Shown here piece after piece: positions 1-17,484 of a stretch of DNA of 31,658 bases. Below the pieces are notes generated by a model, which was not told the DNA's origin, searched no databases, and worked only from the letters and a program-made list of their open reading frames with translations. Both the position numbers and the translations under genes were made by a program. The DNA is from a virus. Each line of letters opens with the position of its first letter. Positions within the stretch are counted from its first letter, which is position 1. The DNA is taken from positions 1 to 31,658 of the IMG/VR virus record IMGVR_UViG_3300042546_000261. One strand, written 5' to 3'.

Positions 1-1
1 T

Positions 2-493
2 TATCAATATGGGGGAATTAATTGGGAGGGTAATGATATTGGTAATACTGGAGTAAGAGGATACATTAGGGGTGTTGCCGAAGGTAGTACAGGACAGTTT
101 GCTATTACATTTGGAACCCAACAGTCTGGTCCTTCCGCACCAATTGAACAATTAAGAATTGCTTCTGATGGTAATATTACTGCTAGTGGAGAAATTACTG
201 CACTATCTGATGAAAGATATAAGACAAATGTGAAGAATATTGATGACCCTCTCGCTAAAGTTTTACAACTTCGTGGTGTAGAATATGATAGAATCGATAA
301 AGAACAACATACTATTGGACTTATTGCTCAAGAAGTAGAAAAAGTTCTTCCTGAATTGGTTCACGAAAATCATGAGGGAGTAAAATCAGTTGCATATCAA
401 AACATGGTTGCACTTCTAATTGAGGCAATTAAAGAGCAACAAAAACAAATTAGTGATTTGAAAGAAGAGGTTGACAAATTGAAGAATGTTTAG
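2..493 (+). CDS. Tail fibre C-terminal part with S74 intramolecular chaperone (5' end outside window)
   Basis: The frame is open from the first bases to a TAG at 491-493, so the gene starts before the window. The first ~65 residues are glycine- and threonine-rich, as in beta-structured fibre shafts or tips. From about base 203 the protein reads LSDERYKTNVKNI, then GLIAQEVEKVLPELV, then a coiled coil (AIKEQQKQISDLKEEVDKL). This is the signature of the peptidase S74 / endosialidase C-terminal chaperone. In that family the domain trimerises the fibre and then cuts itself off at a serine just before the LSDxRxK motif; here that serine is in ALSDER. An internal ATG at 230 is not the start, because the domain begins upstream of it. 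It probably forms part of the host-contacting fibre. Confidence 0.9.
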   Translation, partial: YQYGGINWEGNDIGNTGVRGYIRGVAEGSTGQFAITFGTQQSGPSAPIEQLRIASDGNITASGEITALSDERYKTNVKNIDDPLAKVLQLRGVEYDRIDKEQHTIGLIAQEVEKVLPELVHENHEGVKSVAYQNMVALLIEAIKEQQKQISDLKEEVDKLKNV

Positions 494-521: not shown

Positions 522-1361
522 ATGAATTTTACTATATTATCAAATCCTCCATATCAAGACAATAATAAAGCAAAAAATAATAAACTTTGGTATAAATTTA
601 TTGAGTTAGATATTAATCTTCTTCAGACTGGCGGAACTATGGCAAAAGTTACGCCAGCATCTTTCATTGGAACAACGGGATTCGGTAAAAAGTTTTTTCA
701 AAAATGTCAAACAATTTATAATTTGATTCAGATTGACTATACTTCTGATAAGTATTTCACTGAAGGAGTATCAATTTGCTCTTGGATTTTAAAAAAAGAA
801 CCATATAAAGGAACTACAAAAGTCATACATGAGACTGGAATTTATTATTTGGATTTGAGGGATGGTCTTCCTTTATTTGGTGAAGAAAAAATATTGCATT
901 CTATTTTTAACAAAATAGCAAACTCAAATCATCCAAGAATACCTCTTAAGATTGGTCAGGATATTCCAAATGATGAATATTGTGATGATGGAAAATATGA
1001 GGTTTATGCCTCTGGTAAAAATATTAAAAGAACTAATGTTGTTCCAACAACTGGAGATTTATTGAAGTTTGTAGTTCCATACTCGTGCTCATATTCTGGT
1101 AGATTTATCACAAATGGATATGTTGGTATGTTAAACTCGTGGTGCCATATTAAAAATGAAGAGGAGGGAGACCTGCTATCAAAAATTTTTGATGTTCCTC
1201 TAATACAATTGTTTGTTGAAAATTATAAAACTACTGCTGGATTTGCTGCAGCAGTTAAAAATGCAGAAGTTCCTCTTTTAAAGAATTTTGAAAATGTGCA
1301 TGAACAATTTGATTTTACACCTGAAGAACTTGAGTATTTAAAAGATAAAAATGTCATCTAA
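522..1361 (+). CDS. Adenine-specific DNA methyltransferase, catalytic (motif IV) and target-recognition half
   Basis: 279 residues. The catalytic NPPY motif of N6-adenine methyltransferases is at residues 8-11, right at the N-terminus. It is followed by a segment like motifs V-VIII (GGTMAKVTPASFIG near residue 40) and a C-terminal region that would serve as target recognition domain, as in Eco57I-like (gamma class) enzymes. In those enzymes 100-150 residues with the AdoMet-binding motif I precede NPPY. Here they are absent, but the next gene, overlapping by 11 bases, encodes exactly that part. The two products probably assemble into one enzyme. DNA specificity cannot be read from the sequence. 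A one-protein inactive remnant is the alternative, but both frames are intact and the overlap suggests coupled translation. Confidence 0.8.
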   Translation: MNFTILSNPPYQDNNKAKNNKLWYKFIELDINLLQTGGTMAKVTPASFIGTTGFGKKFFQKCQTIYNLIQIDYTSDKYFTEGVSICSWILKKEPYKGTTKVIHETGIYYLDLRDGLPLFGEEKILHSIFNKIANSNHPRIPLKIGQDIPNDEYCDDGKYEVYASGKNIKRTNVVPTTGDLLKFVVPYSCSYSGRFITNGYVGMLNSWCHIKNEEEGDLLSKIFDVPLIQLFVENYKTTAGFAAAVKNAEVPLLKNFENVHEQFDFTPEELEYLKDKNVI

Positions 1362-1770
1362 TAAAAATAAGCATAATGAGTCTTTGGGGTCTAAAGTTGA
1401 AAGATCCGACCAAAGAATTTCAGAGACTGGTGAAGTTTTTACTCCACCAGATTTAGTTAATGAGTTGATTGAGTGTATCGATGAAGATTTATTTAAAAAT
1501 CCCAATTCAAAATTTCTTGATAACTCTGCTGGAAATGGAAATTTTATATTTGAATTAAAAACCAAATTATGTAAATATCATGATGAAGATTATGTGTTAA
1601 ACAATATGCTATATGCTGTTGAATTGATGGAAGATAATCATAAAGAATTGTGTAAACGATTGGGGGTTCCTACAACACATCCACATTATGTTTGTGCGGA
1701 TGCCCTTGAATATCACTATCGATTTGATGGTACAATAGGTCATCCTACCTTAGACCAATTTTTTAACTGA
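1351..1770 (+). CDS. Adenine-specific DNA methyltransferase, AdoMet-binding (motifs X and I) half
   Basis: 139 residues. TGEVFTPPDLVNELI (about 26-40) is the motif X region typical of gamma-class and type IIG methylases. FLDNSAGNGNF (55-65) is motif I, the AdoMet loop. AVELMEDN (89-96) supplies the acidic motif II residue, and CADALEY (115-121) fits motif III. The protein then stops where NPPY should follow, and that motif is in the gene upstream. The start codon lies inside the end of that gene (11-base overlap). The last ~12 residues do not look like a conserved domain, and the stop codon is part of the ACTGACCAC promoter element at 1766, as if the gene had been cut there by recombination. 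Confidence 0.8.
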   Translation: MSSNKNKHNESLGSKVERSDQRISETGEVFTPPDLVNELIECIDEDLFKNPNSKFLDNSAGNGNFIFELKTKLCKYHDEDYVLNNMLYAVELMEDNHKELCKRLGVPTTHPHYVCADALEYHYRFDGTIGHPTLDQFFN

Positions 1771-1810
1771 CCACCTGCACCACCCGTGCGGGTAAATTTT
1801 GCTGTATAAT
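1766..1810 (+). promoter_or_regulatory. Promoter cassette before the helicase gene
   Basis: TATAAT lies at 1805-1810, ending 22 bases before the ATG at 1832. ACTGACCAC (1766-1774) is 39 bases upstream of the -10 and matches elements at 8523, 20788, 23769 and 30820. Between them ACCC (1782-1785) and GGGT (1790-1793) can form a small hairpin over the -35 position. No good -35 hexamer is present. Confidence 0.6.
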
Positions 1811-1831
1811 AATTTTATTGACATGACACCC

Positions 1832-3061
1832 ATGAAACTCCGAACTCATCAGTCCGAAGCACTCTCCATCATGAGCAATACCCCCAAAGGTACTATTGTG
1901 GTTCCTACTGGCGGTGGCAAGTCCCTGATTGCCATTATGGATGCTGTGCGTCAGTTTGAGCAAGGAAACAAAACCATTGTGGTGGTTGCTCCTCGTCTCA
2001 TGCTTGCACGTCAGTTGTCTGCTGAGTTTACAGAGCACATTACCAATGCTTCTGTGATGCATGTTCACTCTGGTAATGATCTTCCTTATTTTACTACTAC
2101 AAAACCCAAAGAGATCTTCTCTTGGTGCTATCGCACTAATGGTAATAAGTTGATTTTTACTACTTATCAATCTTTGTATCGTATTGAGCAGGCAGATATT
2201 GTAGTTGATACAATCTATTATGATGAAGCACACAACTCGGTCAAAAAGAGTTTTTACCCTACCGTCAAGCATTTCTCTTCTAATGCTAACCGCAGTTATT
2301 TCTTCACTGCTACTCCTAAGTATTCTGCTACTGCTTCCAAACCTGGAATGAACGATGTGGAAGTTTATGGTGGAATCATTTACAATGTTGCTGCTACACG
2401 CCTCGTCAACAACGGTTCTATTCTTCCCCCTAAGATTAACGCAATTAATATCGGTGGTATCCGTCTGAAGGGCGAGGAGGCAGCAGAGAGGGACTGTATG
2501 ACCCTTCTGGATACCCTGTACAATGAAGAGCACATGGAGAAGGTTTTGATTGCTGCTCCTAACACTAAAGTGATGATCCGTATGCTTGCAGAGACTGATT
2601 TCTTGAAAGAAGTTCAGTCTATGGGTTATGACCTTCTTTGGATTACCAGCAAGCATGGTTCGTTCCTTAACGACAAAAAGATTTCCCGTGAGGAATTCTT
2701 TAATCTTGTTCGTGAGTTTGGTGCAGACCCTGACAAAAAGTTCATTGTTCTTCACTATTCCATTCTCAGCGAAGGAATCTCTGTTCCTGGTCTGACTTCT
2801 TTGATTCTCATGCGTCAGATGAATGTGATTGAAATGTGTCAGTCTGTTGGTCGCGTCATTCGTCTTCATCTTGATGATGTGAAGCGTATTCAAGAAGGAA
2901 CTCTTGTTCCTGGTAAACTTCAGGATTACACTAAATCTTTTGGTTTAGTTCATGTTCCTGTCTACAACAATGTTGGAATTGCTACTGTGAAGCGTCTCCA
3001 AAGTATTGTTGATACTGTATTTGTTCAAGGTCAACCTGCAATCTCTACTATTAAACGATGA
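1832..3061 (+). CDS. SF2 DEAD/DEAH-box helicase
   Basis: 409 residues from the ATG at 1832. An N-terminal Q-like motif (MKLRTHQSEAL) is followed by Walker A PTGGGKS at about residues 25-31, Walker B DEAH (about 140), motif III TATP and motif VI QSVGRVIRL near residue 340. These are the two RecA-like domains of superfamily 2, closest in layout to the helicase domain of type III restriction subunits and UvsW-like phage helicases. It probably unwinds DNA or branched intermediates during replication or recombination. ATG 1823 is also in frame, but 1832 matches the family's typical start and the 22-base spacing to the -10. Its GC-richer codons (CGT, CTT, GCT) differ from the AT-rich genes before and after. 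Confidence 0.85.
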   Translation: MKLRTHQSEALSIMSNTPKGTIVVPTGGGKSLIAIMDAVRQFEQGNKTIVVVAPRLMLARQLSAEFTEHITNASVMHVHSGNDLPYFTTTKPKEIFSWCYRTNGNKLIFTTYQSLYRIEQADIVVDTIYYDEAHNSVKKSFYPTVKHFSSNANRSYFFTATPKYSATASKPGMNDVEVYGGIIYNVAATRLVNNGSILPPKINAINIGGIRLKGEEAAERDCMTLLDTLYNEEHMEKVLIAAPNTKVMIRMLAETDFLKEVQSMGYDLLWITSKHGSFLNDKKISREEFFNLVREFGADPDKKFIVLHYSILSEGISVPGLTSLILMRQMNVIEMCQSVGRVIRLHLDDVKRIQEGTLVPGKLQDYTKSFGLVHVPVYNNVGIATVKRLQSIVDTVFVQGQPAISTIKR

Positions 3062-3231
3062 AAGAAGGATTTATTACAAAGGATGGATATGCCGCAGTTC
3101 CTTTCGGCAATCAACTCATGGTTATTTACAATGGACAGCAGTTGAAAGTTTGTAGAACTGAAAATTCTGCTAGAAAGTTTATTAAAGACCATTCATCTCA
3201 ACCAAAGTCTGGAACTGTTTTTATTAATTGA
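3058..3231 (+). CDS. Small conserved-looking protein, 57 residues
   Basis: The ATG overlaps the helicase stop as ATGA, so translation is probably coupled. The product (MKEGFITKDGYAAVPFG...) has three short beta-like segments followed by a helix (ENSARKFIKDH). This is the same general plan as the small protein at 31087-31260, though I see no convincing homology. Function is unknown; perhaps an accessory of the helicase. Confidence 0.7.
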   Translation: MKEGFITKDGYAAVPFGNQLMVIYNGQQLKVCRTENSARKFIKDHSSQPKSGTVFIN

Positions 3232-3234
3232 ATT

Positions 3235-3429
3235 ATGAAATCTAAATTTATTTGCGTCTCTCCCATCACAGATAAGGCAAAAGAAAACTTTTCAACTATA
3301 ATGAATTCTTTTCATTCTTGTCGAGTAAAACAAGAAAAAAAAGACATGATTTATCTTGAGTCTCTCAATAAAATGTATTATTTTTGGGTAAATAAAAGTA
3401 AAGACCCTAACTGGAAAATTGAAAAATAA
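3235..3429 (+). CDS. Hypothetical protein, 64 residues
   Basis: Starts three bases after the preceding stop. Lysine-rich, soluble and basic; the middle (KKDMIYLESLNKMYYFWV) looks like a helix or strand pair. No motif recognised. It ends one base before the ATG of the next gene. Confidence 0.6.
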   Translation: MKSKFICVSPITDKAKENFSTIMNSFHSCRVKQEKKDMIYLESLNKMYYFWVNKSKDPNWKIEK

Positions 3430-3430
3430 T

Positions 3431-3916
3431 ATGTGGAAGATAAAATATCTTGAACATGGTTATGCAGATTATTTTGACAAATGGTTACCATTTTTTAAAT
3501 ATAAATCTGATTTAGTTCAAGATAATACGAACAATTGTTTATCTAAAAATTGCTTTGCAACAAAAAATCTGTTAAAATTTGTGGGCGATAATGAATTTTT
3601 AGATATTATTGAAGAGTTAAAGTCTATTTGTGAGAAATGTGTAAATAAAGAACTAGAATACTTTTATTTGCATATGATTGATTATGAAAATGGAGGTGAA
3701 ATGTCATCCCACAAACATGATCATAATGAAGACTATAGTTTTATTCTTTATCTTAATTCTTGTGAAGATGGGGATACCCTTCTTCATCTTGATCCTGAAA
3801 TAAAAATAAAACCAGTTAAAGATAAAATGGTGTTATTTTCTTCAGATATTGTTCATTCTGCTATTTTTTCTAATAAAAAAAGAATTCTTGTTGGAGGATT
3901 AAAACTATGTCTTTAA
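3431..3916 (+). CDS. 2-oxoglutarate/Fe(II) dioxygenase-like protein
   Basis: 161 residues from ATG 3431; an in-frame TTG 12 bases earlier is less likely. MSSHKHDHNEDYSFILYLN (from residue 91) contains the first metal-binding histidines of a double-stranded beta helix. GDTLLHL, the SSDIVHSA histidine (142) and KKRILVGGLKL, with Arg151 as candidate 2-oxoglutarate ligand, complete the pattern of small phage dioxygenases. Such enzymes hydroxylate proteins, nucleobases or small molecules; the substrate is unknown. It overlaps the next gene by 10 bases. It is one of three dioxygenase-like genes in the window. Confidence 0.75.
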   Translation: MWKIKYLEHGYADYFDKWLPFFKYKSDLVQDNTNNCLSKNCFATKNLLKFVGDNEFLDIIEELKSICEKCVNKELEYFYLHMIDYENGGEMSSHKHDHNEDYSFILYLNSCEDGDTLLHLDPEIKIKPVKDKMVLFSSDIVHSAIFSNKKRILVGGLKLCL

Positions 3917-4476
3917 ATCGTTCTTTTGAAATTCTTCATTTTTCCTATCGACATTGGCCTTCTTATCATGAACAGGGTTGTTATAATCTTAACCTTGTTT
4001 TTCGTGCGTCTGATGAAGATGATGAATATTACAGCACTAAAGATAGATTTATGTATGAAGCTGAAGAGTGGCATAAATCTGAAATTGTTCAAGACCTTGA
4101 GTTAGAACAAAAATATGTTATGGGACTTAATGTTTTAGACGCAAGAACGGGTAAAGACCTATTAGATGGGTGGAAGGAAGAGAAAGAAAAAGAGGATTTT
4201 GATGAGAACGAACTTATTCCAATTGATATTGTGAATAAGGATGGTATAGAAAGAGAAGATGTTTATATCAAAGGATATCAAAGAAACGAAACTATGATGC
4301 TTAATTATATTGAAAAGTTTGATGTATTTCGTTTCTATGAATTTTTTGAAATTAATCCAGCAACTAAAGGTATTATTGAGTATATTGAGGATTTGAAAAA
4401 AATGGAGAATACAGATCCATATTATGCTGGTCAATTTCTCAGGGCACTTAAATCTTTAGAACTTTGGTGGGATTAG
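3907..4476 (+). CDS. Hypothetical acidic protein, 189 residues
   Basis: Begins inside the end of the dioxygenase gene. It starts with an aromatic N-terminus (FEILHFSYRHWPSYHEQGCY), continues with acidic segments (ASDEDDEYYS; KEEKEKEDFDENEL) and ends in a helical region with DPYYAGQFLRALKSLELWW. Soluble, with no membrane segment or catalytic motif that I recognise. Its overlap with the dioxygenase suggests co-expression. Confidence 0.65.
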   Translation: MSLNRSFEILHFSYRHWPSYHEQGCYNLNLVFRASDEDDEYYSTKDRFMYEAEEWHKSEIVQDLELEQKYVMGLNVLDARTGKDLLDGWKEEKEKEDFDENELIPIDIVNKDGIEREDVYIKGYQRNETMMLNYIEKFDVFRFYEFFEINPATKGIIEYIEDLKKMENTDPYYAGQFLRALKSLELWWD

Positions 4477-4506
4477 TCAAATATATAATAAAGATGTTAT
4501 TTTATA

Positions 4507-4752
4507 ATGTTAACTCAATTACAATTAATCTTTCTTACTATATTTGCACTTGTTGCCTATGCTATGGTAACAGATCCAAATATAGTAAGATTTTTTGATA
4601 TTTGCATTAAATTGTTTAAAATAAATATCGAAAGATTAATTTGGATGATAAGATTTCATCCTTTAGTTACTACTAATCCTGTGAGTCAATGGTTAATGAT
4701 GCGTAAGTATATGAAGCAGGTGGAAGAAATGCAAAAAGATTTAAATAAGTGA
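4507..4752 (+). CDS. Small single-span membrane protein
   Basis: 81 residues. Residues 4-22 (QLQLIFLTIFALVAYAMVT) form one membrane segment. It is followed by an amphipathic, tryptophan- and arginine-containing stretch and a charged C-terminal helix (MRKYMKQVEEMQKDLNK). Short proteins of this plan are common and conserved in cyanomyoviruses, but without known function. A TATAAT-like string at 4484-4489 precedes it, with no clear -35. Confidence 0.75.
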   Translation: MLTQLQLIFLTIFALVAYAMVTDPNIVRFFDICIKLFKINIERLIWMIRFHPLVTTNPVSQWLMMRKYMKQVEEMQKDLNK

Positions 4753-4758
4753 TTTTAT

Positions 4759-5475
4759 ATGGAAGAAGATTTAAGAACTAAACATGCAGACATTTTAAAA
4801 GATCCAGAGGGTCCTTTGAATCATTATAATGTCATATATCCAGATGACCCTAGAACAGAAAATTATTTTGATTTCTGTGGGAATACCATCTATAGGGCAT
4901 ATAATGTATTGAGTTTGGAAGATAGGCAAGGACTATTGGAAGAAATTGATGATGAATTATCTAAAAATCCTAATTGGGATTTATCTGTAGAAGCTACTAA
5001 AGAACTTAGTATTAGAAAATTAAAAAATAAAGAGTGTTGGGTTAACTTCTTTAAGATGGTAAAACATCATTTGTATAATTATGCAAAAGTAACAAATAAT
5101 CCAAAAATTTTAGAATTAAAAATTCAATCTTATTGGGCGAAGAGATTGAGAGATGTCTCTGAAGAAAAATATGCAGAAGAATTGTATATAAACTACGGAA
5201 ACACCCACAGTCATCAGCATTTTGATCTGGGATTAATTTTTTACCTACAAAATCCCTCAAGAATTTATGGAACAATAATTGAAAATGATGGGAGGGAAGT
5301 TATAATTCCTGGGGATGAAAATTCTTTACTGTTACATCATTCTGCGGTGAATCATCAACCAGCACATCCACCTCCGATGGTTGCAAAAGATTATTATAGA
5401 TGTGTCATTGTTGCAGATTTTATGTATCCAGATAAAGATAAAAAAATGAGAATCGCAGATGACAGAAAAAGATAA
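4759..5475 (+). CDS. Putative 2-oxoglutarate/Fe(II) dioxygenase (phage hydroxylase-like)
   Basis: 238 residues. THSHQHFDLGLIFYLQNP (from residue 149) gives H154-x-D156 as probable iron ligands. LLLHHSAVNHQP (about 190-201) offers the distal histidine, and YYRCVIVADFMYP places Arg214 where 2-oxoglutarate is bound. The N-terminal half, with an acidic helix and WDLSVEATKELS, is not recognised. The dioxygenase call rests on motif order only, and the target is unknown. It overlaps the next gene by 17 bases. Confidence 0.65.
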   Translation: MEEDLRTKHADILKDPEGPLNHYNVIYPDDPRTENYFDFCGNTIYRAYNVLSLEDRQGLLEEIDDELSKNPNWDLSVEATKELSIRKLKNKECWVNFFKMVKHHLYNYAKVTNNPKILELKIQSYWAKRLRDVSEEKYAEELYINYGNTHSHQHFDLGLIFYLQNPSRIYGTIIENDGREVIIPGDENSLLLHHSAVNHQPAHPPPMVAKDYYRCVIVADFMYPDKDKKMRIADDRKR

Positions 5476-5692
5476 AAAAATCTATAAAAATATTTTTAAA
5501 AAAATATTAGATAATAAAAAAGATTCCATGACCTATGAAGAAGGAACATGGTTAATGGAAAGACCCGAATTGATGGATTTGGCAAAAAAATTAAATGCCA
5601 AAGTGAAAATAATGGCTAGATTTCCAGAGTATAAAAATACAATAGAAGAAATACTTTTTATTCTTGACTTATCTGACAGGTTTTTAAGATAA
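5459..5692 (+). CDS. Hypothetical basic helical protein, 77 residues
   Basis: Starts within the end of the preceding gene. Lysine-rich N-terminal helix (KDKKIYKNIFKKILDNKK), then predicted helices throughout; no cysteine, no membrane segment. It is the last gene before the terminator at 5694, so it closes this transcription block. Confidence 0.65.
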   Translation: MTEKDKKIYKNIFKKILDNKKDSMTYEEGTWLMERPELMDLAKKLNAKVKIMARFPEYKNTIEEILFILDLSDRFLR

Positions 5693-5693
5693 G

Positions 5694-5718
5694 AACAACT
5701 TATATGGGGTTGTTTTTT
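5694..5718 (+). terminator. Rho-independent terminator after the 5459 gene
   Basis: AACAAC (5694-5699) pairs with GTTGTT (5709-5714) around a 9-base loop, followed by a run of T. The stem is short and AT-rich, so termination may be partial. Its right arm overlaps the -35 of the next promoter. Confidence 0.65.
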
Positions 5719-5738
5719 AATCGATCTTTTGCTATCAT
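5710..5738 (+). promoter_or_regulatory. Sigma70-like promoter of the RNA-repair operon
   Basis: TTGTTT (5710-5715), a 17-base spacer and TATCAT (5733-5738). The -10 ends 23 bases before the ATG at 5761, the same spacing as other promoters here. It overlaps the terminator, so old transcription stops where new transcription starts. Confidence 0.65.
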
Positions 5739-5760
5739 AGGCAAATAACAAAGCAGAGTT

Positions 5761-6903
5761 ATGCACTACAAATTTCCAACAATTACAAATTTGGATCAGG
5801 TTAAAACTGCCATTGAAGGTTATGATGAATTTCGCGTAACTAACAAAGGATTTTATACCGTAGTGAATTATGCTGTAGCATTCGATAATACTTTTGATAT
5901 TGTCGATGAGAATGATGTTAATGGAATGATACGTAGAGAATGTAGGGGATTAATTTTTGATGTTGATGGTAATTTAATCTCTCGTCCTTATCATAAATTT
6001 TTTAATTTGAATGAAAGGAAAGAAACCCATATCGACACAGTTGGATTTGACCTCCACACTGTTCTTGAAAAGATGGATGGATCTATGATTAGACCAATTC
6101 CTTCTGAATATGGATTTAGACTCGCCACTAAAGCTGGGATTACTGATGTTGCAATAAATGCTGAAATTTTTATTTCAGATAAACCAGAGTATGCAAATTT
6201 TATTAATCATTGTATTTCTAGAAATCTAACCCCAATTTTTGAATGGTGCTCTCGTAAAAACAGAATCGTAGTTGATTATCCAGAAGATAAATTAGTTCTT
6301 ACTGCTTTGAGAAGTATTAAAAATGGTTCTTATTGTTCGTATAATAACCTTCGTCTTTTATCTGAACATTATGATATTCCTCTGGTTAAAAAATGGCCAG
6401 ATAATATGGACATACAACAATTAGTTGAATATGTCCGTAATCTTGAAGATGAGGAAGGTATTGTTCTTCGTTTTGATAATGGACATATGTTAAAAATCAA
6501 AGCAGAAGAATATGTTCTTCGTCATAAATCTAAAGAACAAATCAGTCAAGAAAAAAATGTCTTGGAAGTAATCATTGAAGATAAAGTTGATGATGTAATA
6601 CCATTATTGAGTGATTCTGATGCCAACAGATTAAAATACTTCCAAAAGGCATTTTGGATTAATGTTGACGAGGTTGCTTTTAATTTAGCAGAAGTTTATC
6701 AAAAAGGAAAAAACTATAAAGATAAGAAATCTTTTGCTGTGGAGTTTGTTCAAAAACTTAGTCCTCACTTGCAACCATTCATGTATGCAATGAATTCTGG
6801 AAAAGGTTCTAAGAGTCTTTTGATAGAATCTATTAAAAAGTCTACTACTTCACAAACTAAGATTGATCAATCACGTTGGATGTGGGGAAACCTAGTTTGG
6901 TAA
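5761..6903 (+). CDS. rnlA: RNA ligase 1, T4 RnlA type
   Basis: 380 residues, close to the 374 of T4 Rnl1. The nucleotidyltransferase motifs come in order: RRECRGLIF (58-66), motif I EKMDGS with Lys104 as the AMP-accepting residue, motif IIIa in FEWCSRKNRIV, motif IV DEEGIVLRF and motif V MLKIKAEEY. The C-terminal ~120 residues are helical, as in Rnl1. In T4 this enzyme joins the 3'-OH and 5'-phosphate ends of tRNA cut in the anticodon loop by a host defence nuclease, after Pnk has healed the ends. The Pnk kinase and phosphatase are encoded just downstream, which supports the same role. It has its own promoter and a leader without a Shine-Dalgarno sequence. Confidence 0.9.
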   Translation: MHYKFPTITNLDQVKTAIEGYDEFRVTNKGFYTVVNYAVAFDNTFDIVDENDVNGMIRRECRGLIFDVDGNLISRPYHKFFNLNERKETHIDTVGFDLHTVLEKMDGSMIRPIPSEYGFRLATKAGITDVAINAEIFISDKPEYANFINHCISRNLTPIFEWCSRKNRIVVDYPEDKLVLTALRSIKNGSYCSYNNLRLLSEHYDIPLVKKWPDNMDIQQLVEYVRNLEDEEGIVLRFDNGHMLKIKAEEYVLRHKSKEQISQEKNVLEVIIEDKVDDVIPLLSDSDANRLKYFQKAFWINVDEVAFNLAEVYQKGKNYKDKKSFAVEFVQKLSPHLQPFMYAMNSGKGSKSLLIESIKKSTTSQTKIDQSRWMWGNLVW

Positions 6904-6907
6904 ATTT

Positions 6908-7384
6908 ATGGAAAACGTATCAATAGAACCATATAAAACAATATTAGTTCTTAACGCAAGTTATGAACCAATAAATTTTTGTAATTGGAAAAGAGCCGTT
7001 GTGCTTTTACTAAAAGAGAAAGCACAATTATTGTCATCTAGAGTCATACGATTGGTAAATTACATAAATTTACCAATTTCTAAAATAATTTCATGCAAAC
7101 CATCTAGGCATTTAATTTACAAAAGAGATGACCACAGATGTCAGTATTGTGGTTCTATAAAACAACTTACAATTGACCACGTAATTCCAAAATCTAAAGG
7201 TGGTAAAGATACTTGGGAAAATTTAGTGGTTGCTTGTATGCCATGTAATACAAAAAAAGGTGATAGAACTCCAGAAGAATGGGGAACTCCTCTATATCAA
7301 AAACCAAAAGCATTATATAATAAAATGCTAATATCTTTAAAATCTTCTAATGTTCCTGAATGGAAGGAGTACGTTTATGCCTGA
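6908..7384 (+). CDS. HNH endonuclease, cyanobacterial type
   Basis: 158 residues. A non-catalytic N-terminus (ILVLNASYEPINFCNWKRA) resembles a widespread cyanobacterial and cyanophage HNH family. The HNH core follows: zinc cysteines C78 and C81 (CQYC), catalytic DHVIPKSKGG (Asp90, His91), ENLVVAC with Asn105, and C110-x2-C113 before NTKKGDR. It should nick or cut DNA with a divalent metal. It sits four bases after the RNA ligase and overlaps the kinase gene by 8 bases, so it is inside the RNA-repair operon. It may be a co-opted mobile endonuclease; no intron or insertion boundary is visible. Confidence 0.9.
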   Translation: MENVSIEPYKTILVLNASYEPINFCNWKRAVVLLLKEKAQLLSSRVIRLVNYINLPISKIISCKPSRHLIYKRDDHRCQYCGSIKQLTIDHVIPKSKGGKDTWENLVVACMPCNTKKGDRTPEEWGTPLYQKPKALYNKMLISLKSSNVPEWKEYVYA

Positions 7385-7853
7385 ATGTGTAATGTTGTGT
7401 GGAATTCCTACTTGTGGGAAGTCCACATATGTTAAAAAATTACAATCTTTAAACTATTGGAAAGATGCTGTAGTATTATCTACCGACAATTATATTGAGA
7501 AGCAGGCACAAAGGATGGGTCTGACTTATAATCAAATTTTTGATGATGTGATTGATGATGCAACTCGGGAACTTGAACTTGAGTTCAATATGGCAAAGGA
7601 CAAGGGAAAAGACATCATTTGGGATCAGACAAACTTATCAATTAAGTCCAGAAAGAAAAAACTTTCTAAACTTCCTTCCTATTACAGGAGAGAGGCGGTA
7701 TACTTTGAAATAACATTGGAGGAAGCACTAAAACGAAATGAATGCCGTGAAGGCAAATTCATTCCCAAAAGTATTCTTCATAGAATGTACCATCAGTTTG
7801 AATTTCCAACCTTAGAAGAGGGATTTGATTATGTTGAAAAAATTAAAGTTTAA
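7377..7853 (+). CDS. Polynucleotide 5'-kinase (kinase domain of T4 Pnk as a separate protein)
   Basis: 158 residues from ATG 7377, preceded by a good ribosome site AAGGAG (7364-7369). GIPTCGKST near the N-terminus is the P-loop, LSTDNY carries the catalytic acid region, and IIWDQTNLS and ALKRNECREGKFIPKSILHRMY match the lid and end of the T4 Pnk kinase domain (compare T4 VPIDVLRSMY). The kinase domain of the 301-residue T4 enzyme ends at about this point, and its phosphatase domain follows. Here the phosphatase is a separate gene, 204 bases further on. The reaction is ATP-dependent 5' phosphorylation of RNA or DNA ends, giving the substrate for the ligase at 5761. Confidence 0.88.
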   Translation: MPECVMLCGIPTCGKSTYVKKLQSLNYWKDAVVLSTDNYIEKQAQRMGLTYNQIFDDVIDDATRELELEFNMAKDKGKDIIWDQTNLSIKSRKKKLSKLPSYYRREAVYFEITLEEALKRNECREGKFIPKSILHRMYHQFEFPTLEEGFDYVEKIKV

Positions 7854-8058
7854 ATCTCCATACAATCATCATTTTGAATATACTAGCGATATTGAACGTA
7901 TCGTAAAAATCTTTGCCGATCGTGGATATGAGATTTCACATCAAGATGCTGTTCATGCTTGGGAAGAATTTTCTGACAGTATGTGTGCAGGTTGGATGTG
8001 CTTAGGTGAAGATGATGAAGTCTTTCAAGACGCATTTTATTATTTTGAGGAAGTTTGA
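7831..8058 (+). CDS. Small hypothetical protein lying between the two Pnk halves
   Basis: 75 residues from ATG 7831, overlapping the end of the kinase gene by 23 bases; its stop shares a base with the phosphatase start. The sequence is acidic and aromatic (HHFEYTSDIERIVKIFADRGYEISHQDAVHAWEEFSD...) and looks like a small helical domain. No family recognised. Its position inside a split enzyme suggests a gene inserted between the former domains, or a small subunit linking them. Confidence 0.75.
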   Translation: MLKKLKFKSPYNHHFEYTSDIERIVKIFADRGYEISHQDAVHAWEEFSDSMCAGWMCLGEDDEVFQDAFYYFEEV

Positions 8059-8522
8059 TGGCAGAAAAAAAGAAAAATTGTTTTATATTTGACTTAGATG
8101 GAACGATTTGTAATGTAAGTCATCGTAGACAATATGTTGTAACCAAACCACGTAACTGGGATGCTTGGAACAAAGGTCTCATTAATGATGTACCTAACGT
8201 AGCAGTTCAAAAGGTATTCCAAGCACTTCGCAATGCTAATGATTACGATACTGATTTGATTATTGTTTCTGGTCGCTCAGACGATTATAAAGAACAAACG
8301 GTCAAGTGGTTGACTGATAATGAAATCTTTTACGATGAAATTTATATGAGAAAGTATAAAGATCATCGGGATGATGCTGTTGTTAAAGCAGAAATTGCTG
8401 ACGAAATTGAAAAAACTCACCAAATTCTTGGTGTGTTTGATGACCGTCAGAGGGTTGTGAATATGTGGATTGAGCGTGGTATCTGGGTGTTCGACGTTGG
8501 GCAAGGTAAGGGCAATTTTTGA
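8058..8522 (+). CDS. Polynucleotide 3'-phosphatase (phosphatase domain of T4 Pnk as a separate protein)
   Basis: 154 residues from ATG 8058. FIFDLDGTICNVSHRR is the HAD-family nucleophile motif (DxDGT), LIIVSGRSDDYK is motif II, HRDDAVVKAEIAD carries the motif III lysine, and GVFDDRQRVVNMW is motif IV. These match the C-terminal phosphatase domain of T4 Pnk closely (T4: VVVSGRE, RKDDVVKEEI, AIDDRTQVVEMW). It should remove 3'-phosphate or 2',3'-cyclic phosphate so that the ligase can seal. It closes the operon, and a promoter cassette starts one base after the stop. Confidence 0.88.
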   Translation: MAEKKKNCFIFDLDGTICNVSHRRQYVVTKPRNWDAWNKGLINDVPNVAVQKVFQALRNANDYDTDLIIVSGRSDDYKEQTVKWLTDNEIFYDEIYMRKYKDHRDDAVVKAEIADEIEKTHQILGVFDDRQRVVNMWIERGIWVFDVGQGKGNF

Positions 8523-8587: not shown

Positions 8588-8875
8588 ATGAGTTTTTCCA
8601 AAACTGTTTCCGTTTTCGCTGCACTTGCAAGTATTTTTGCTGCTGGAGCTACTGGTTGGAAACTTGCAAATTCCCAACAAGAAGTTCCTTTGAATCCATT
8701 AGACCAAAAAGTAATGGAGTTGGAAAAAAAGATTGAAGAAGTAACAACTGAAAAACCAATTGAGCAAGTGGTACAACCACAAGTAGAATTGCAACCTAAA
8801 CCAACTATACCTCCAGTACCACCACTACCCCCGCTTCCAGCACCTACAGAGGACACAAATGAACAAACTCCGTAA
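8588..8875 (+). CDS. Membrane-anchored proline-rich small protein
   Basis: 95 residues. The N-terminus (SKTVSVFAALASIFAAGATGW) is an uncleaved signal anchor or single membrane span. A charged helix with LEKKIEEV follows, then a proline-rich tail (residues 66-90) with repeated PPxPPLP. This plan suggests an inner-membrane protein with a flexible tail that binds a partner. It overlaps the RNA ligase gene by 17 bases. Confidence 0.75.
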   Translation: MSFSKTVSVFAALASIFAAGATGWKLANSQQEVPLNPLDQKVMELEKKIEEVTTEKPIEQVVQPQVELQPKPTIPPVPPLPPLPAPTEDTNEQTP

Positions 8876-9902
8876 ACTTGCTTCCATCAAACCTATCACC
8901 TATATCAAACCGATTGAAGGTGCTGATGCTATTGAGTGTGCTATTGTTGATGGTGGTTGGCCTGTAGTTGTCAAAAAAGGTGAGTATAAGGTTGGGGATA
9001 TTGCCATCTACCTTGAGATTGATAGTTGGGTGCCCCACAAACTTGCTCCATTCCTTAGTAAGGGTCAAGAACCCCGTGAGTATAATGGTGTAAAGGGTGA
9101 GCGTCTTCGTACTGTTAAACTTCGTGGTCAAGTTAGTCAGGGTCTTCTGCTGCCGATTGAACTTACGTTCTGGCGTGATATTGGCACGGACCTTACAGAA
9201 TCTCTGGGTATTCAGAAGTGGGAACCGCCCATCCCTGCTCAACTTCAGGGTACGATGAAGGGTAACTTCCCACACTTCATTCCTAAAACTGATCAAGAGC
9301 GTTGCCAAAATCTTCGTAAAGACATCTTTGAGACTCATAAAGAGGAGATTTATGAAGTCACCGTCAAACTTGATGGTAGTAGCACCACTATCTATGTCAA
9401 AGATGGTGAGGTTGGTGTATGTTCGCGGAATATTGACCTCATTGAAACTGAGGGCAATAGTTTCTGGAAAGCAGCACGGGAGCAGAATATTATCGAACCT
9501 CTTCTTGAATTGTGTAAAGAAAAGGGTGAAGAATATGCTATTCAAGGTGAATTGATTGGTGAAGGTATTCAGGGTAATCCTGAAAAAATCAAAGGTCAAC
9601 GATTCTATTTGTTTGATATTTACAGTATTACCTGTGGTGAATATTTTAAAGCAAATGTTCGATATAGTATTCTCGATAAACTAAAGATGCTTGGTGCTGA
9701 TATTGAGCACGTTCCTATTGTTGATGTTGATGTTCGTGTTGCTCAAGCATACGACAGTATTGATGACCTTCTTGAGTTTGCTGAGGGTCCATCGTTGAAT
9801 CCTCAGACCAAACGTGAAGGTCTGGTCTTCAAATCGTGGGAAAGTGACTTTACTTTTAAAGCAATTTCTAACTCTTATCTCCTAAAGCATAAAGACCGAT
9901 GA
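8859..9902 (+). CDS. RNA ligase, Deinococcus DraRnl (DRB0094, Rnl5) family
   Basis: 347 residues. The N-terminal ~120 residues form the OB-like domain special to this family (GWPVVVKKGEYKVGDIAIYLEID). The ligase core follows: motif I VTVKLDGSS with Lys170 as the adenylated residue, motif Ia VCSRNIDL, motif III QGELIGEGIQGN, motif IV REGLVFKS and motif V TFKAIS. The Deinococcus enzyme seals 3'-OH to 5'-phosphate nicks where the 3'-OH side is RNA. This is a second RNA ligase besides the Rnl1-type at 5761, in a different operon next to a phosphoesterase. Codon use (CGT, GGT) is GC-richer than that of the genes at 11050-15300. Confidence 0.9.
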   Translation: MNKLRKLASIKPITYIKPIEGADAIECAIVDGGWPVVVKKGEYKVGDIAIYLEIDSWVPHKLAPFLSKGQEPREYNGVKGERLRTVKLRGQVSQGLLLPIELTFWRDIGTDLTESLGIQKWEPPIPAQLQGTMKGNFPHFIPKTDQERCQNLRKDIFETHKEEIYEVTVKLDGSSTTIYVKDGEVGVCSRNIDLIETEGNSFWKAAREQNIIEPLLELCKEKGEEYAIQGELIGEGIQGNPEKIKGQRFYLFDIYSITCGEYFKANVRYSILDKLKMLGADIEHVPIVDVDVRVAQAYDSIDDLLEFAEGPSLNPQTKREGLVFKSWESDFTFKAISNSYLLKHKDR

Positions 9903-10699
9903 AAGTAAAAGTTGTATCCGATTTACATTTAGAATGTTGTGAATACGGTCACGGTGTTCCTGACCTTGGAGAGGGAGAAGTCTTAATTCTTGGTGGTGAT
10001 ATTCTCTGTGCTCGACACTTCAAAAAAGACGGAAACCTTCACAAGGTTTATACCGACTTCTTGAAGAAGTGTGCCGACAACTTCATGCACGTTCTGTATA
10101 TCGCAGGAAATCATGAAGCATATGGATACAACTATGAAGGAACTTGGAATGTTCTCAAAGAAAACCTTCCCAATGGTATTCATCTGATGGAAGATAGTGT
10201 AGTGAAGATTGCGGACTGGGTTTTTATTGGTTCGACTTTTTGGACTGATTTCCGCAATGGAAATGCCCTGGAAATGATGGAAGCAGCACAGTGTATGAAT
10301 GATTATAAGACCATTCGCATTACTCCAAAGTATCGCAAGATGAATCCTGATGATACTTATGCCTTTCATAACAAATCAAAGCAATTTCTACTGGATCAGT
10401 TAGAACTTTTTAAAAATCAAAAAATTTGGGTTCTCACGCACCATGCACCATCTTATCAATCAGTTCATGAGCAGTATAAAACAAGTGGTATTGCGAATGG
10501 TGCATATGTCAGCGATCTTGATGATTTTATTTTAGAACATCCAGAGATTAGAATTTGGTCTCATGGACATACACATAACTCATTTGATTACAAAATTGGT
10601 GATTGTAGAGTTGTCTGTAATCCCAGAGGGTACTATAATGGATATAATAATTCTGGTTTGAATTTAGATTTTGATCCAAATTTTGAAATTGAGTTATGA
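9899..10699 (+). CDS. Calcineurin-like metallophosphoesterase
   Basis: 266 residues, with its ATG overlapping the ligase stop. The five metallophosphatase motifs are in order: SDLHLE (D8, H10), LGGDI, AGNHEAYG, LTHHAPS and HGHTHNS. They hold two metal ions that hydrolyse phosphomono- or diesters. Coupling to an RNA ligase suggests that it trims or heals RNA ends or removes 2',3'-cyclic phosphate, but this is inferred from position only. Confidence 0.88.
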   Translation: MKVKVVSDLHLECCEYGHGVPDLGEGEVLILGGDILCARHFKKDGNLHKVYTDFLKKCADNFMHVLYIAGNHEAYGYNYEGTWNVLKENLPNGIHLMEDSVVKIADWVFIGSTFWTDFRNGNALEMMEAAQCMNDYKTIRITPKYRKMNPDDTYAFHNKSKQFLLDQLELFKNQKIWVLTHHAPSYQSVHEQYKTSGIANGAYVSDLDDFILEHPEIRIWSHGHTHNSFDYKIGDCRVVCNPRGYYNGYNNSGLNLDFDPNFEIEL

Positions 10700-10893: not shown

Positions 10894-11053
10894 TACTGCT
10901 AGATTTCCTTATCCAAATTTCCCATTTAGATTAGAATACGAAGAAAACAAAGTTAAAAGAGTTTGTCATTTTGAGTGTAAAGAACATCTCAATAAATATT
11001 TGGAACGTCATAAACTTAAAAAGAATAAAGTTACAATCGAAACTCGTAAATGA
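10886..11053 (+). CDS. Hypothetical basic protein, 55 residues
   Basis: Start chosen at ATG 10886 because GGTGGA lies just before it and the overlap with the previous gene is then 8 bases; earlier ATGs at 10847 and 10871 are in frame. Small, with FECKEHLNKYLERHKLKKNKV near the end. Function unknown. Coupled by ATGA to the radical SAM gene. Confidence 0.65.
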   Translation: MIDTARFPYPNFPFRLEYEENKVKRVCHFECKEHLNKYLERHKLKKNKVTIETRK

Positions 11054-11883
11054 AAATATTTAAAGTCCCTCACATAGAATTACATGTAACGCATACTTGC
11101 AATTTTAGTTGTGAAGGATGTTCTCATTATTCTAATCATGGACATTCTGGGTCTTTAACTTTAAAAGAATGTGATGAATGGTTGTATTCTTGGAGTAGAA
11201 GATTACAACCAGAACTATTCACTATACTTGGTGGTGAGCCAACTCTTAATAAAAATTTGATTGATATAATTTATCTGGTTCGGATGATGTGGCCAGATAC
11301 TGCAACTGCTATTGATCTTGTATCAAATGCTAGTTTTTTACATACACATCCAAATTTACCGCAGGCATTATTGGATACTGACAGTACTTTAGCAATATCT
11401 ATTCATAGTAAAGTACATGCTGGATATGTAAATAAATTTAAAAAAGGTTATAGATTGACAAAAGAATGGAGAAAGCAATACGGAATTAATTTAGAATTTT
11501 GGGATTTTACCACAGATACCTGGACTCCTCAATATAATGGATTTGGGAATAATATGCTTCCCTATGAAGATAATAATCCAAGAAAGAGTTGGGAGAAGTG
11601 TCTATCTAAAAAAGCTCTACAAATACATGAGGGTAAATTGTGGAAATGTCCACCATTGGCATATTTACCAATGCAAGCAAAAAAATATAATCTTGACAAA
11701 AAATGGGATCCTTATTTAAAATATAAACCATTAGATTCGGATTGTTCTGATCAAGAACTTGAAGAATTTTTAAATAAAGAAGATGAATGTTTTTGTTCTA
11801 TGTGCCCTGCAAATATGGATAATCCTTATAAAAAAAATGATCCAACTCTTCCAGTAAGTTATTGGGAGAAGTTAAATTCATGA
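11050..11883 (+). CDS. Radical SAM enzyme
   Basis: 277 residues. CNFSCEGC (C17, C21, C24) is the CX3CX2C site for the 4Fe-4S cluster that cleaves AdoMet, and FTILGGEPTLN (about 56-66) is the GGEP motif that holds its methionine part. The C-terminal third has further cysteines (KCLSKKAL, LWKCPP and ECFCSMC) that could bind an auxiliary cluster, as in SPASM-like or twitch proteins. The reaction cannot be assigned. Radical SAM enzymes with such tails often modify peptides or sugars. It is coupled by ATGA to the carbamoyltransferase gene, so the two probably act in one pathway. Confidence 0.88.
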   Translation: MKIFKVPHIELHVTHTCNFSCEGCSHYSNHGHSGSLTLKECDEWLYSWSRRLQPELFTILGGEPTLNKNLIDIIYLVRMMWPDTATAIDLVSNASFLHTHPNLPQALLDTDSTLAISIHSKVHAGYVNKFKKGYRLTKEWRKQYGINLEFWDFTTDTWTPQYNGFGNNMLPYEDNNPRKSWEKCLSKKALQIHEGKLWKCPPLAYLPMQAKKYNLDKKWDPYLKYKPLDSDCSDQELEEFLNKEDECFCSMCPANMDNPYKKNDPTLPVSYWEKLNS

Positions 11884-13304
11884 TTACCTGGGGAATATCA
11901 TCAGAGAGTCATAATGCTGCACTTTCTGTATTTGTTAATGATAGTCTAGTCTTCGCAAGCGAAAGTGAAAGATTCAGTGGTATAAAAAATGATGCTTATT
12001 TAAATAATGGCATTATTGACTATGCACTAAAGTTTGGAAAACCAGAATTGGTATGCTGGTATGAGAATCCATATAAGAAAACGTTTAGACAACTTCTTGC
12101 AGGTCAAGGATGGATTCAGAACGTCAAAAAGTATGTTGATGTTCCAATCAAGTATTATGACCATCACTATACTCATGCTTGTGCTGGTTACTTTACCAGT
12201 CAGTTTGACGAGTGTTGTGTGGTGGTTATTGATGCTATAGGAGAATTCCAAACACTTACTATCTGGGAAGCAAGAGGTAATAAATTAAAACTTAAATTTC
12301 AACGTAAATATCCACACAGCGTTGGACTTTGGTATTCTGCAATGACACAAAGGTGTGGATTAAAACCAAATGAAGAAGAGTATATCCTCATGGGCATGTC
12401 TGCTTATGGGGATAAAACACGTTATGAAGATGATATCTATAAAGATTTCATAGGATTTAGAACAGCAACCTTTAAAAAGAATTTACATAAAGGATGTGTT
12501 GATTGGAGACCAGATATTAAAAACACTTTTGATATCGCTGCTGCAACTCAAAACATTTATGAAACAATTTTTAGAGATATTATGCAAGTAGCATCCAATA
12601 AAGTAAAAAGTAAAAATTTAGTTCTAATGGGTGGATGTGCGTTAAATTGTGTTGCAAATCCAATTGCATATTATTATTTTGACAATTTATGGATTATGCC
12701 TGCACCTGGAGATAATGGGTCTGCCATTGGTTCTGTGCTTGCACATAAAAAGAAACATATTGATTGGCATGGACCTTATCTTGGATATTATATTAAATCA
12801 GTTGCATCAAACGAAGAAATTGTTAACCACTTAATGGATTATGGTCTTTGTGGAGTTGCAAGAGGTTGTGCAGAGTTTGGTCCTAGGGCACTGGGGAATC
12901 GTAGTTTATTTGCAGACCCTAGAGATCCACAAATTAAATCAATGGTCAACAATATTAAACAAAGACAACAGTTTAGGCCATTTGCACCAGTAATTATGGA
13001 AGAATATGTACACGATTACTTTAGAATGCCTACAAATTCTTCACCATACATGCAATATGCTGTAAAATGTAGATATTCTAAAAAGTTTCCAGCAATTGTT
13101 CACATAGATAAAACAAGTAGAGTTCAAACTGTTAATAGACAACAAAATACAGAACTTTATGATCTTTTAAAGATGTGGAATGAAAAAACAGGTTGTCCTA
13201 TGTTATTGAATACTAGTTTGAATATTAAAGGGAAACCGATGGTAAATGATGAAAAAGATTGTAAAGAATGGGAAGAAACTTATGGGGTTAAAATATTCTC
13301 ATGA
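11880..13304 (+). CDS. Carbamoyltransferase (NodU/TobZ/CmcH family)
   Basis: 474 residues from ATG 11880. The N-terminal Kae1-like domain shows ISSESHNAALSVF, DHHYTHACAGYF (metal-binding histidines, about 94-105) and LVLMGGCALNCVANP (about 248-261), then GDNGSAIGSVL. The C-terminal catalytic domain has FGPRALGNRSLFADPR (333-348), QRQQFRPFAPVIMEE and MLLNTSLNIKGKPMV. Family members transfer a carbamoyl group from carbamoyl phosphate to a hydroxyl of a sugar or antibiotic. A phage-derived relative has been reported to carbamoylate 5-hydroxymethylcytosine in DNA. At 474 residues it is shorter than the usual ~550-580. It sits between a radical SAM enzyme and an SGNH-like protein; target unknown. 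Confidence 0.9.
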   Translation: MITWGISSESHNAALSVFVNDSLVFASESERFSGIKNDAYLNNGIIDYALKFGKPELVCWYENPYKKTFRQLLAGQGWIQNVKKYVDVPIKYYDHHYTHACAGYFTSQFDECCVVVIDAIGEFQTLTIWEARGNKLKLKFQRKYPHSVGLWYSAMTQRCGLKPNEEEYILMGMSAYGDKTRYEDDIYKDFIGFRTATFKKNLHKGCVDWRPDIKNTFDIAAATQNIYETIFRDIMQVASNKVKSKNLVLMGGCALNCVANPIAYYYFDNLWIMPAPGDNGSAIGSVLAHKKKHIDWHGPYLGYYIKSVASNEEIVNHLMDYGLCGVARGCAEFGPRALGNRSLFADPRDPQIKSMVNNIKQRQQFRPFAPVIMEEYVHDYFRMPTNSSPYMQYAVKCRYSKKFPAIVHIDKTSRVQTVNRQQNTELYDLLKMWNEKTGCPMLLNTSLNIKGKPMVNDEKDCKEWEETYGVKIFS

Positions 13305-16364: not shown

Positions 16365-16925
16365 ATGGCAGTATTAACCGCAACTGGTATTCTATTTAAT
16401 GATAGTACGTCATTAAATTCAAGATATGATGTTATAGCACAATCATCAGTAGCAATTTTTTATCAAGCTTCGGCACCTACTGGGTGGACTAAAGTAACAA
16501 CACATAATGATAAGGCACTTAGAGTTGTTAGTGGGACTGGTGGCGGATTTGGATATGGTGGAGTATCTGGTGCAGGAGGAATAACATTTACTTCTGCATT
16601 CCCTTCTAATTTAAAAAATCTCAGTATTCCAATTAGTGTTAGTGCTGGAATTGCTGGAACAGTTGGTAATACAACTCTTTCTGTTTCGCAAATTCCAAAT
16701 CATACTCACGATAGCTTAACTGGTGGCACTAGTTCTGCAGCATCTGGTGGTGCTTCATTTAGAACTCCAGGAACTAATGCTACTGGTGGAGTAGTAAGTC
16801 CTACAGGAACAGGAGGAGCACACAACCACCCCTTTACGGGAAGTGTTGGGATTACTTCAACTGCAACTGGATCTTTGGATTTAAGAGTCCAATATATAGA
16901 TGTAATTATCTGCAGCTTCGATTAA
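16365..16925 (+). CDS. Tail-tip / collar-like structural protein, copy 1
   Basis: 186 residues, rich in Gly, Ser and Thr. FYQASAPTGWTKV opens a block common in phage collar and short-tail-fibre tips. PNHTHD (H113, H115) and GAHNHPFTG (H153, H155) give H-x-H pairs as in T4 gp12, where they bind a metal in the trimer. The end LRVQYIDVIIC is typical. A second copy follows after one base. Likely part of the virion surface or fibre, expressed late. The N-terminal ~30 residues are probably the attachment part. Confidence 0.8.
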   Translation: MAVLTATGILFNDSTSLNSRYDVIAQSSVAIFYQASAPTGWTKVTTHNDKALRVVSGTGGGFGYGGVSGAGGITFTSAFPSNLKNLSIPISVSAGIAGTVGNTTLSVSQIPNHTHDSLTGGTSSAASGGASFRTPGTNATGGVVSPTGTGGAHNHPFTGSVGITSTATGSLDLRVQYIDVIICSFD

Positions 16926-16926
16926 T

Positions 16927-17484
16927 ATGGCATCTTTAACTAGTGGCGGGATAAGATTTAGTTTAACTGATTTCACCAATATAATTGAATCTTTTTATTG
17001 GATGTATCCTGCGGGGACTAAAAAGGTATTTTATCAAGCAGAAGCACCAACTGGTTGGGTAAAAGATACAACTCAAAATAATAAAATGTTAAGAGTTGTT
17101 AGTGGAAGTGGTGGAGTTTCTGGTGGAACAATTTCAGCATCTAATGCCTTTATATCTACAGGAACTGAAGTATCTTTCCCATTTGCTGGTTCTTATCCCG
17201 CAAGTGGTACTGTTGGTAATACTACTCTTTCATTAGGACAACTTCCAAATCACACTCATGAAGGAACTATGGGTTCAAATGGAGGTTCTTCTGCAACTCC
17301 ATTCAGTAATGCTGGTTCTAGAACTGTTTTTGGTAGTGTTGCGACTAGTGGTATGCTAGAATCTACTGGTGGAGGTTCTCATACACATCCTTGGTCTGGT
17401 ACACTAAACTTAAATGCTAATATTACTAGCACTACAGATCTTAGTGTGCAATATGTTGATGTGATTATTTGCACATTATCATAA
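16927..17484 (+). CDS. Tail-tip / collar-like structural protein, copy 2
   Basis: 185 residues, paralogous to the gene before it: FYQAEAPTGWVKD, LRVVSGSGG, VGNTTLSLGQLPNHTHEG, SHTHPWSG and VQYVDVIIC align in the same order. The metal-type histidines are kept (H109/H111 and H152/H154). The glycine-rich middles differ most, which is where receptor-contacting loops would be. Two copies may form a heteromeric tip or offer alternative host contacts. Confidence 0.8.
   Translation: MASLTSGGIRFSLTDFTNIIESFYWMYPAGTKKVFYQAEAPTGWVKDTTQNNKMLRVVSGSGGVSGGTISASNAFISTGTEVSFPFAGSYPASGTVGNTTLSLGQLPNHTHEGTMGSNGGSSATPFSNAGSRTVFGSVATSGMLESTGGGSHTHPWSGTLNLNANITSTTDLSVQYVDVIICTLS

Follow-up and report, generated by a model that had tools for sequence, protein, structure and literature searches.

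Two overlapping genes and their motifs

The DNA analysed here (the window) is the whole of a 31,658-nucleotide virus fragment (IMG/VR record IMGVR_UViG_3300042546_000261). Near its start lie two overlapping genes, relatives of which occur mostly in Synechococcus and Prochlorococcus phages. The features of this region are as follows.

522..1361, + strand: gene 1, an ORF of 279 aa; catalytic and target-recognition half, from motif IV onward (motif-IV part of Eco57I, phrog_3689, alignment A2 of 12 relatives)
543..554, + strand: motif IV, NPPY (residues 8-11 of gene 1), read from the sequence; N8 and P10 invariant in A2
940..1245, + strand: probable target-recognition region (TRD) of gene 1, its limits estimated from AF2 strands E139-209 and the alignment with CamA
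1351..1361, + strand: overlap of gene 1 and gene 2, 11 nt, +1 phase
1351..1770, + strand: gene 2, an ORF of 139 aa; AdoMet-binding half (motifs X, I, II and III), without motif IV (phrog_4376, alignment A1 of 28 relatives)
1426..1449, + strand: motif X, TGEVFTPP (residues 26-33); R22, T26, E28, F30 and T31 invariant in A1
1513..1545, + strand: motif I, FLDNSAGNGNF (residues 55-65); F55, G61 and G63 invariant, D57 and N64 nearly so, in A1
1612..1650, + strand: motif II region, YAVELMEDNHKEL; N96 invariant and Y88, E91 and D95 nearly so in A1; model strand E363-367
1684..1707, + strand: motif III region, HYVCADAL; kept in the cyanophage members of A1; model strand E389-391
1773..1793, + strand: terminator-like hairpin after gene 2, a consensus match only (1 found, 0.7 in shuffled sequences)
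1823..3061, + strand: SF2 helicase gene (ResIII/DEAD, by Pfam), the usual neighbour of the pair

The order on the DNA is therefore IV-TRD (gene 1) before X-I (gene 2), both on the same strand, and the point at which the two genes are split lies between beta-3/motif III and beta-4/motif IV. An earlier note on this DNA, made from the sequence alone, had placed motif IV in the first gene and motifs X and I in the second, with an overlap of 11 bases; the ORFs and the family searches bear this out. A copy of the gene pair that is 100% identical is present in a separate viral contig of 246 kb. No tRNA was found in the window.

Gene 2 ends at the motif III region. It has a weak Pfam match to N6_Mtase (positions 21-87, E 0.004) and a full-length match to the PHROGs family phrog_4376 ('unknown function', 4.9e-61). 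It also matches positions 269-362 of phrog_11371 (383 positions, unknown function), which fits a single-chain fusion form. In profile searches of the PDB, gene 2 matched the X-I regions of CamA (E 5e-5), M.BseCI (9e-5) and HsdM (2okc 144-193, E 0.013). Across the cyanophage members of A1, identity to the window copy is about 55-69%.

The start of gene 1 reads MNFTILSNPPYQD and lies six residues ahead of NPPY; in one S-CAM7 relative in A2 this motif reads NFPF. In Pfam, the match of gene 1 is confined to the motif-IV part of Eco57I (PF07669, positions 78-165 of 171), at 23.6 bits and thus slightly below the cut-off of 25.3. It matches phrog_3689 ('DNA methyltransferase') from position 71 on (9.6e-24). 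The gene 1 profile gave a single, non-significant PDB match (E 0.17), to residues 255-334 of HsdM (2okc), the segment that comes next after the one matched by gene 2. No beta-class chains were among the PDB profile-search matches of either half. As the Pfam matches of both genes are near or below the cut-offs, the case made here rests on comparative evidence.

The earlier note had considered that gene 1 might have its own AdoMet motif hidden upstream. We found none in frame in the window; the DNA upstream contains many in-frame stops and runs through the 3' end of the tail-fibre ORF. Upstream of gene 1 in the 246-kb relative, a match to PF07669 was seen that runs through stop codons, and it was judged a chance extension.

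Conservation of the pair and other arrangements of its halves

We found gene 2 at 80 viral loci, 74 of which have readable upstream DNA. An NPPY ORF lies directly upstream on the same strand, usually overlapping, in 73 of the 74; in the single exception (L026) a helicase sits upstream of the X-I gene. In a separate scan, the X-I gene directly followed gene 1 at every complete window-type locus with DNA beyond gene 1. The isolates that carry the pair include P-SSM2 (036/037), S-CAM7, which has two cassettes (gp056/057 and gp076/077), and Klebsiella phage PKO111 (gp114/gp115). The two-gene arrangement is widespread among phages and is not an accident of one contig. Frame-disrupted copies in all close relatives, which by the earlier note would have counted against its reading, were not seen, these relatives being intact in frame. 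Compared with two relatives of ~90% identity, gene 1 has a dN/dS of 0.06 and gene 2 one of 0.07, at a dS of about 0.74, and by this measure both genes are under strong purifying selection.

The partners of gene 2 are of several kinds: the window type (at most 281 aa), the P-SSM2 type (roughly 190 aa), and long chains of ~1050 aa that carry the window type as their C-terminal end. In two chains of ~1050 aa (L015, 865-4008; L089, 193-3417) a helicase-like region is fused ahead of the NPPY half. On a tree of the 74 X-I proteins, partner type clusters, with at least 7 changes (the minimum is 2, and shuffled labels give 30). Thus, we conclude that partners are mainly co-inherited and sometimes exchanged. 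The mirror-tree correlation of the halves is r 0.89 for 24 window-type cassettes and 0.77 for 38 P-SSM2-type cassettes, values that, like those for linkage, partly reflect shared phage ancestry.

Some genomes have one X-I gene and several NPPY genes. In ACG-2014f, one X-I gene at 36 kb is accompanied by an NPPY gene with an altered N-half at 37 kb, and a second NPPY gene, IV-only, lies at 140 kb, about 100 kb from the X-I gene. In another viral contig (L140, IMGVR_UViG_3300034355_001150), an array of NPPY methyltransferase ORFs (2883-8501) is found near one X-I gene (197-673). What the ORFs of the array have in common is an N-terminal half that hardly differs between them or, where motif IV begins, the repeat GATATGAAATTTGACATAGTGGTGGGCAATCCACC; their target-recognition regions differ. 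From its sequence, this looks like a recombining specificity array.

Single-chain relatives, for which the earlier note had proposed a search, exist and have the same IV-TRD-X-I order. Chains of this kind without an N-terminal half are encoded by Aeromonas phage Aeh1 (gp90) and its relatives and by avDM6, and one such ORF is present in a contig of a Paludibacteraceae (Bacteroidota) MAG. A scan using the L103 fusion alone found no viral relatives of that fusion. We also surveyed the best 80 distant X-I loci: 6 are further fusions, 18 have the NPPY gene first and 33 the X-I gene first, one has NPPY genes on both sides and one is a canonical chain. In the remaining 21 no adjoining NPPY gene was detected, which limits linkage outside the cyanophages. 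The X-I profile was found in only 5 of 398 genomes of one bacterial phylum; four of the 5 are the starting genome or cases in which the X-I gene adjoins an NPPY protein that has an N-half of its own.

At five loci with the X-I gene first (L107, L190, L206, L210 and L225), the NPPY protein starts at or near motif IV, that is, the enzyme is split in canonical order. One of these is from the beta-proteobacterium AG-913-B20 (L107, 3998-5550), where the X-I gene is followed by an overlapping gene that starts at motif IV. In 29 X-I-first distant loci, many of them related (L166-L199, L214, L228), motif I of the NPPY protein is DPxxK[ST]G and not DPxxGxG; their X-I partners keep FLEPACGxGN. The N-half of cyanophage NPPY proteins reads GDP[ST]GxH[ST] or VLFNLEF, without motif X, and the conserved GDPxGxH may itself have a function. 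A GxG-like motif is kept in a few distant NPPY partners (IEPSCGHG in L201, DPAAGGG in L227). For many other NPPY N-halves the automatic motif finder gave no result. Gene 1 of the window and most genes of the P-SSM2 type lack an N-half.

Predicted fold, class affinity and competing explanations

The two products were modelled as one artificially joined chain, in which the stop codon of gene 1 plus one base is read as a residue (TAAT=N). A first AF2 model, from an alignment with only five X-I rows, had pLDDT 60 and pTM 0.47. The second alignment was built from five natural fusions together with 17 gene-1 rows and 13 gene-2 rows. MAFFT often put alignments that mixed in half-length rows out of register, and the final set of rows was chosen for register and not for model quality. 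The resulting model of this artificially joined chain is confident (mean pLDDT 83.5, pTM 0.71) and to that extent does not refute the reading in the earlier note, which had asked for a model of the two chains as a complex. M.MboIIA (1g60) aligns across both halves (Z 12.3, rmsd 3.0 A, 152 residues, model 1..382). Other beta-class structures that span both halves are M1.HpyAVI, M.BceJIV, RsrI, CcrM, PvuII and EcoP15I, and the beta-class order of the joined chain is seen in the alignment of 1g60, 1eg2, 6pbd and 1boo across 1..382-403. In contrast, for the gamma-class structures CamA, M.TaqI and BrxX the alignment is confined to the catalytic and TRD part (1..265-287); for CamA, model residues 1-265 correspond to residues 157-577, comprising core and TRD (about 258 residues). 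This combination of full-span beta-class and partial gamma-class alignment is as expected of a gamma-type enzyme in beta-type order. The model indicates that the joined chain can form one methyltransferase core, and the separate chains may assemble in the same way.

IV-TRD-X-I is the ordinary order of beta-class enzymes in the established classification; these enzymes consist of one chain and typically have DPPY or SPPY. The order alone is consequently not new. What is unusual is its occurrence with gamma-type sequences and in two genes. Judged by their sequences, both halves are gamma-type and in swapped order. The likeness to the gamma class (CamA, M.BseCI, M.TaqI, HsdM, PglX/BrxX) lies in NPPY, motif X (xGxFxTP) and the type of motif I, but in that class X-I-IV-TRD is one chain, whereas the pair comprises two genes with IV-TRD before X-I. 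The likeness to the beta class (M.MboIIA, M.RsrI, CcrM, M.PvuII, EcoP15I Mod) lies in the circular order and in the alignment of the model over both halves, but beta-class enzymes are single polypeptides and the pair is two ORFs. Because the pair lacks one defining feature of each class, we place it in neither. The earlier note had described a permuted gamma-type enzyme rebuilt as two genes. The complementary gamma-type halves, the conserved pairing and the swapped order all stand, and the peculiarity of the order itself does not, as it is normal in the beta class. That this order is normal there, that the arrangement is widespread, and that the opposite gene order occurs in other phages are points absent from that note.

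Natural two-polypeptide methyltransferases are known among the cytosine-C5 enzymes (M.AquI and M.EcoHK31I; PMC3404938). As in the pair described here, which is encoded by adjacent genes, one methyltransferase is formed from two polypeptides with complementary motifs. Those enzymes, however, are split in the variable region/motif IX, their small subunit having the last motifs only (PMC3404938), whereas the pair is split through the Rossmann core. C5 enzymes like M.AquI have a PCQ-type motif IV; gene 1 instead has the amino-methyltransferase motif NPPY. A search of the open-access literature yielded no earlier account of a gamma-type enzyme that is divided between motifs III and IV and has its two genes in swapped order.

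We consider it likely that the two genes encode one two-subunit DNA amino-methyltransferase, in which a constant AdoMet subunit would be combined with exchangeable catalytic/specificity subunits. The target base is probably N6-adenine. Gene 2 would supply the AdoMet-binding half of the Rossmann-like core (beta-1 to beta-3, with motifs X, I, II and III), and gene 1 the catalytic half (beta-4 onward, with NPPY) and the target-recognition region. Lying next to each other, the two products would make up a complete core, and its circular order would be that of the beta class.

An alternative that we regard as unlikely gives gene 2 an accessory role: its product would associate with methyltransferases as an AdoMet-binding or regulatory protein, without completing the gene 1 fold, and gene 1 would then act in another way or be inactive. 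X-I genes do also adjoin NPPY proteins with their own N-terminal Rossmann-like half, where a second X-I half is not needed for the fold. However, those N-terminal halves mostly have an altered motif I, gene 1 of the window has no AdoMet half at all, natural fusions join exactly the IV-TRD and X-I parts and nothing else, and the joined chain is predicted to fold as one core. Two observations count against the two-subunit reading: many relatives combine an X-I gene with an N-half whose motif I is changed (GDPSGxHS, VLFNLEF, DPxxKSG), in which X-I has no evident place, and a few distant NPPY partners keep the GxG-like motif mentioned above.

Much less probable is a programmed +1 ribosomal frameshift in the overlap that would yield a single IV-TRD-X-I chain. 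The +1 phase of the overlap is shared by 21 of the 22 cassettes examined, and the single-chain fusions of the same order would be in keeping with such a mechanism, but a conserved slippery sequence is not evident, and the overlap contains a separate start codon (ATG) for gene 2, as is usual for translationally coupled genes. The genes are, moreover, about 580 nt apart in MA01, and ACG-2014f separates the X-I gene from its IV-only gene by the ~100 kb noted above. That the ORFs are what is left of a broken and decaying methyltransferase gene, or the result of misassembly, is scarcely credible and conflicts with the data presented here. It is true that each ORF by itself is an incomplete methyltransferase and that the database labels read 'hypothetical protein', but the low dN/dS (0.06-0.07), the invariant motif residues, the identical copy in the 246-kb contig and the same arrangement in dozens of independent contigs and in the isolates P-SSM2, S-CAM7 and PKO111 all speak against it.

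How a two-subunit enzyme in this order arose may be read from its relatives. Circularly permuted C5 methyltransferases exist in nature (PMC5944983), and two models of circular permutation, fission-fusion and duplication-truncation, have been published (Jeltsch 1999, as cited in PMC3320104). The rearrangement is of the same kind as in the pair; unlike in the known permuted cases, a single phage family here includes the halves as separate genes, permuted chains in which they are fused, and forms whose N-half is altered or lost. Comparison of these sequences suggests an origin by an extra X-I gene and N-half decay rather than by one gene being cut and turned around. The extra X-I gene would have come first, relaxing selection on the N-half of the catalytic gene; the N-half would then have decayed or been lost, and fusion of the remainder would have produced the permuted chain. 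A circular permutation at gene level, rebuilt as two subunits, had been proposed in the earlier note. The joined model, which completes one core, agrees with that proposal, and the relatives favour N-half decay over the cut-and-turn that it implied. The note's further statement, that neither half could work alone, is plausible.

Genomic neighbours, proposed role and significance

A ResIII-type helicase is encoded within 4 kb downstream in 51 of the 53 loci with enough DNA, and a functional link with the pair is possible. This neighbour is distinct from a second, weakly similar helicase of ~495 aa elsewhere in the 246-kb contig, which is possibly UvsW. We detected no nuclease next to the pair in the window, where the neighbours are the tail-fibre ORF and the SF2 helicase, in which no nuclease domain was detected. 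In PKO111 (L096, 991-2926), a GIY-YIG domain is fused to the NPPF half and followed by an overlapping X-I gene; on the basis of these domains, the two products could form a nuclease-methyltransferase. Related small ORFs adjoin the X-I gene in ACG-2014f (gp052; L091, 4482-5084) and Bellamy (gp87; L092, 3436-3999), and by eye these resemble PD-(D/E)XK nucleases, without a Pfam match.

Another gene of the window (29988-30800) codes for a complete, Dam-like adenine methyltransferase of the D12 class (E 6e-59). Any methylation of virion DNA could therefore be credited to the pair only together with a motif. Elsewhere in the window are a homologue of T4 RNA ligase 1 (5761-6903), a second RNA ligase (PHA02142 OB-fold plus RNA_ligase) whose gene overlaps that of a calcineurin-like phosphoesterase (8859-10699), perhaps an RNA repair pair, and a radical SAM protein overlapping a carbamoyltransferase (11050-13304). 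A 95-nt direct repeat with 73% identity (16458-16552 and 17029-17123) lies in two adjacent ORFs.

The pair would most likely methylate the DNA of the phage itself, with gene 1 determining the site. Such methylation could help the phage to escape host restriction, or could label the DNA for one of the phage's own activities, for instance that of the adjacent helicase. If gene 1 were exchanged and gene 2 retained, the specificity would be altered. We raise, more tentatively and at somewhat less than even odds, a general class of phage DNA methyltransferases in which a small constant AdoMet subunit would work in trans with a catalytic/specificity subunit, or with several interchangeable ones, the members of the class being living intermediates of permutation by fission and fusion. 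ACG-2014f, with one X-I gene and two NPPY genes, and the array contig, with one X-I gene beside several NPPY ORFs, are examples; as separate genes the subunits occur in either order, and as fusions in the permuted one.

These natural split amino-methyltransferases are suggested as tools for conditional DNA methylation. A function would be given to phrog_4376, a family that is widespread in marine cyanophages, including P-SSM2. The series of forms in which the N-half is changed, the N-half is lost or the halves are fused makes the question of circular permutation testable within one family. If the two-subunit reading is true, these phages switch modification specificity by replacing one small gene while the cofactor half is kept, an economical adaptation to host restriction.
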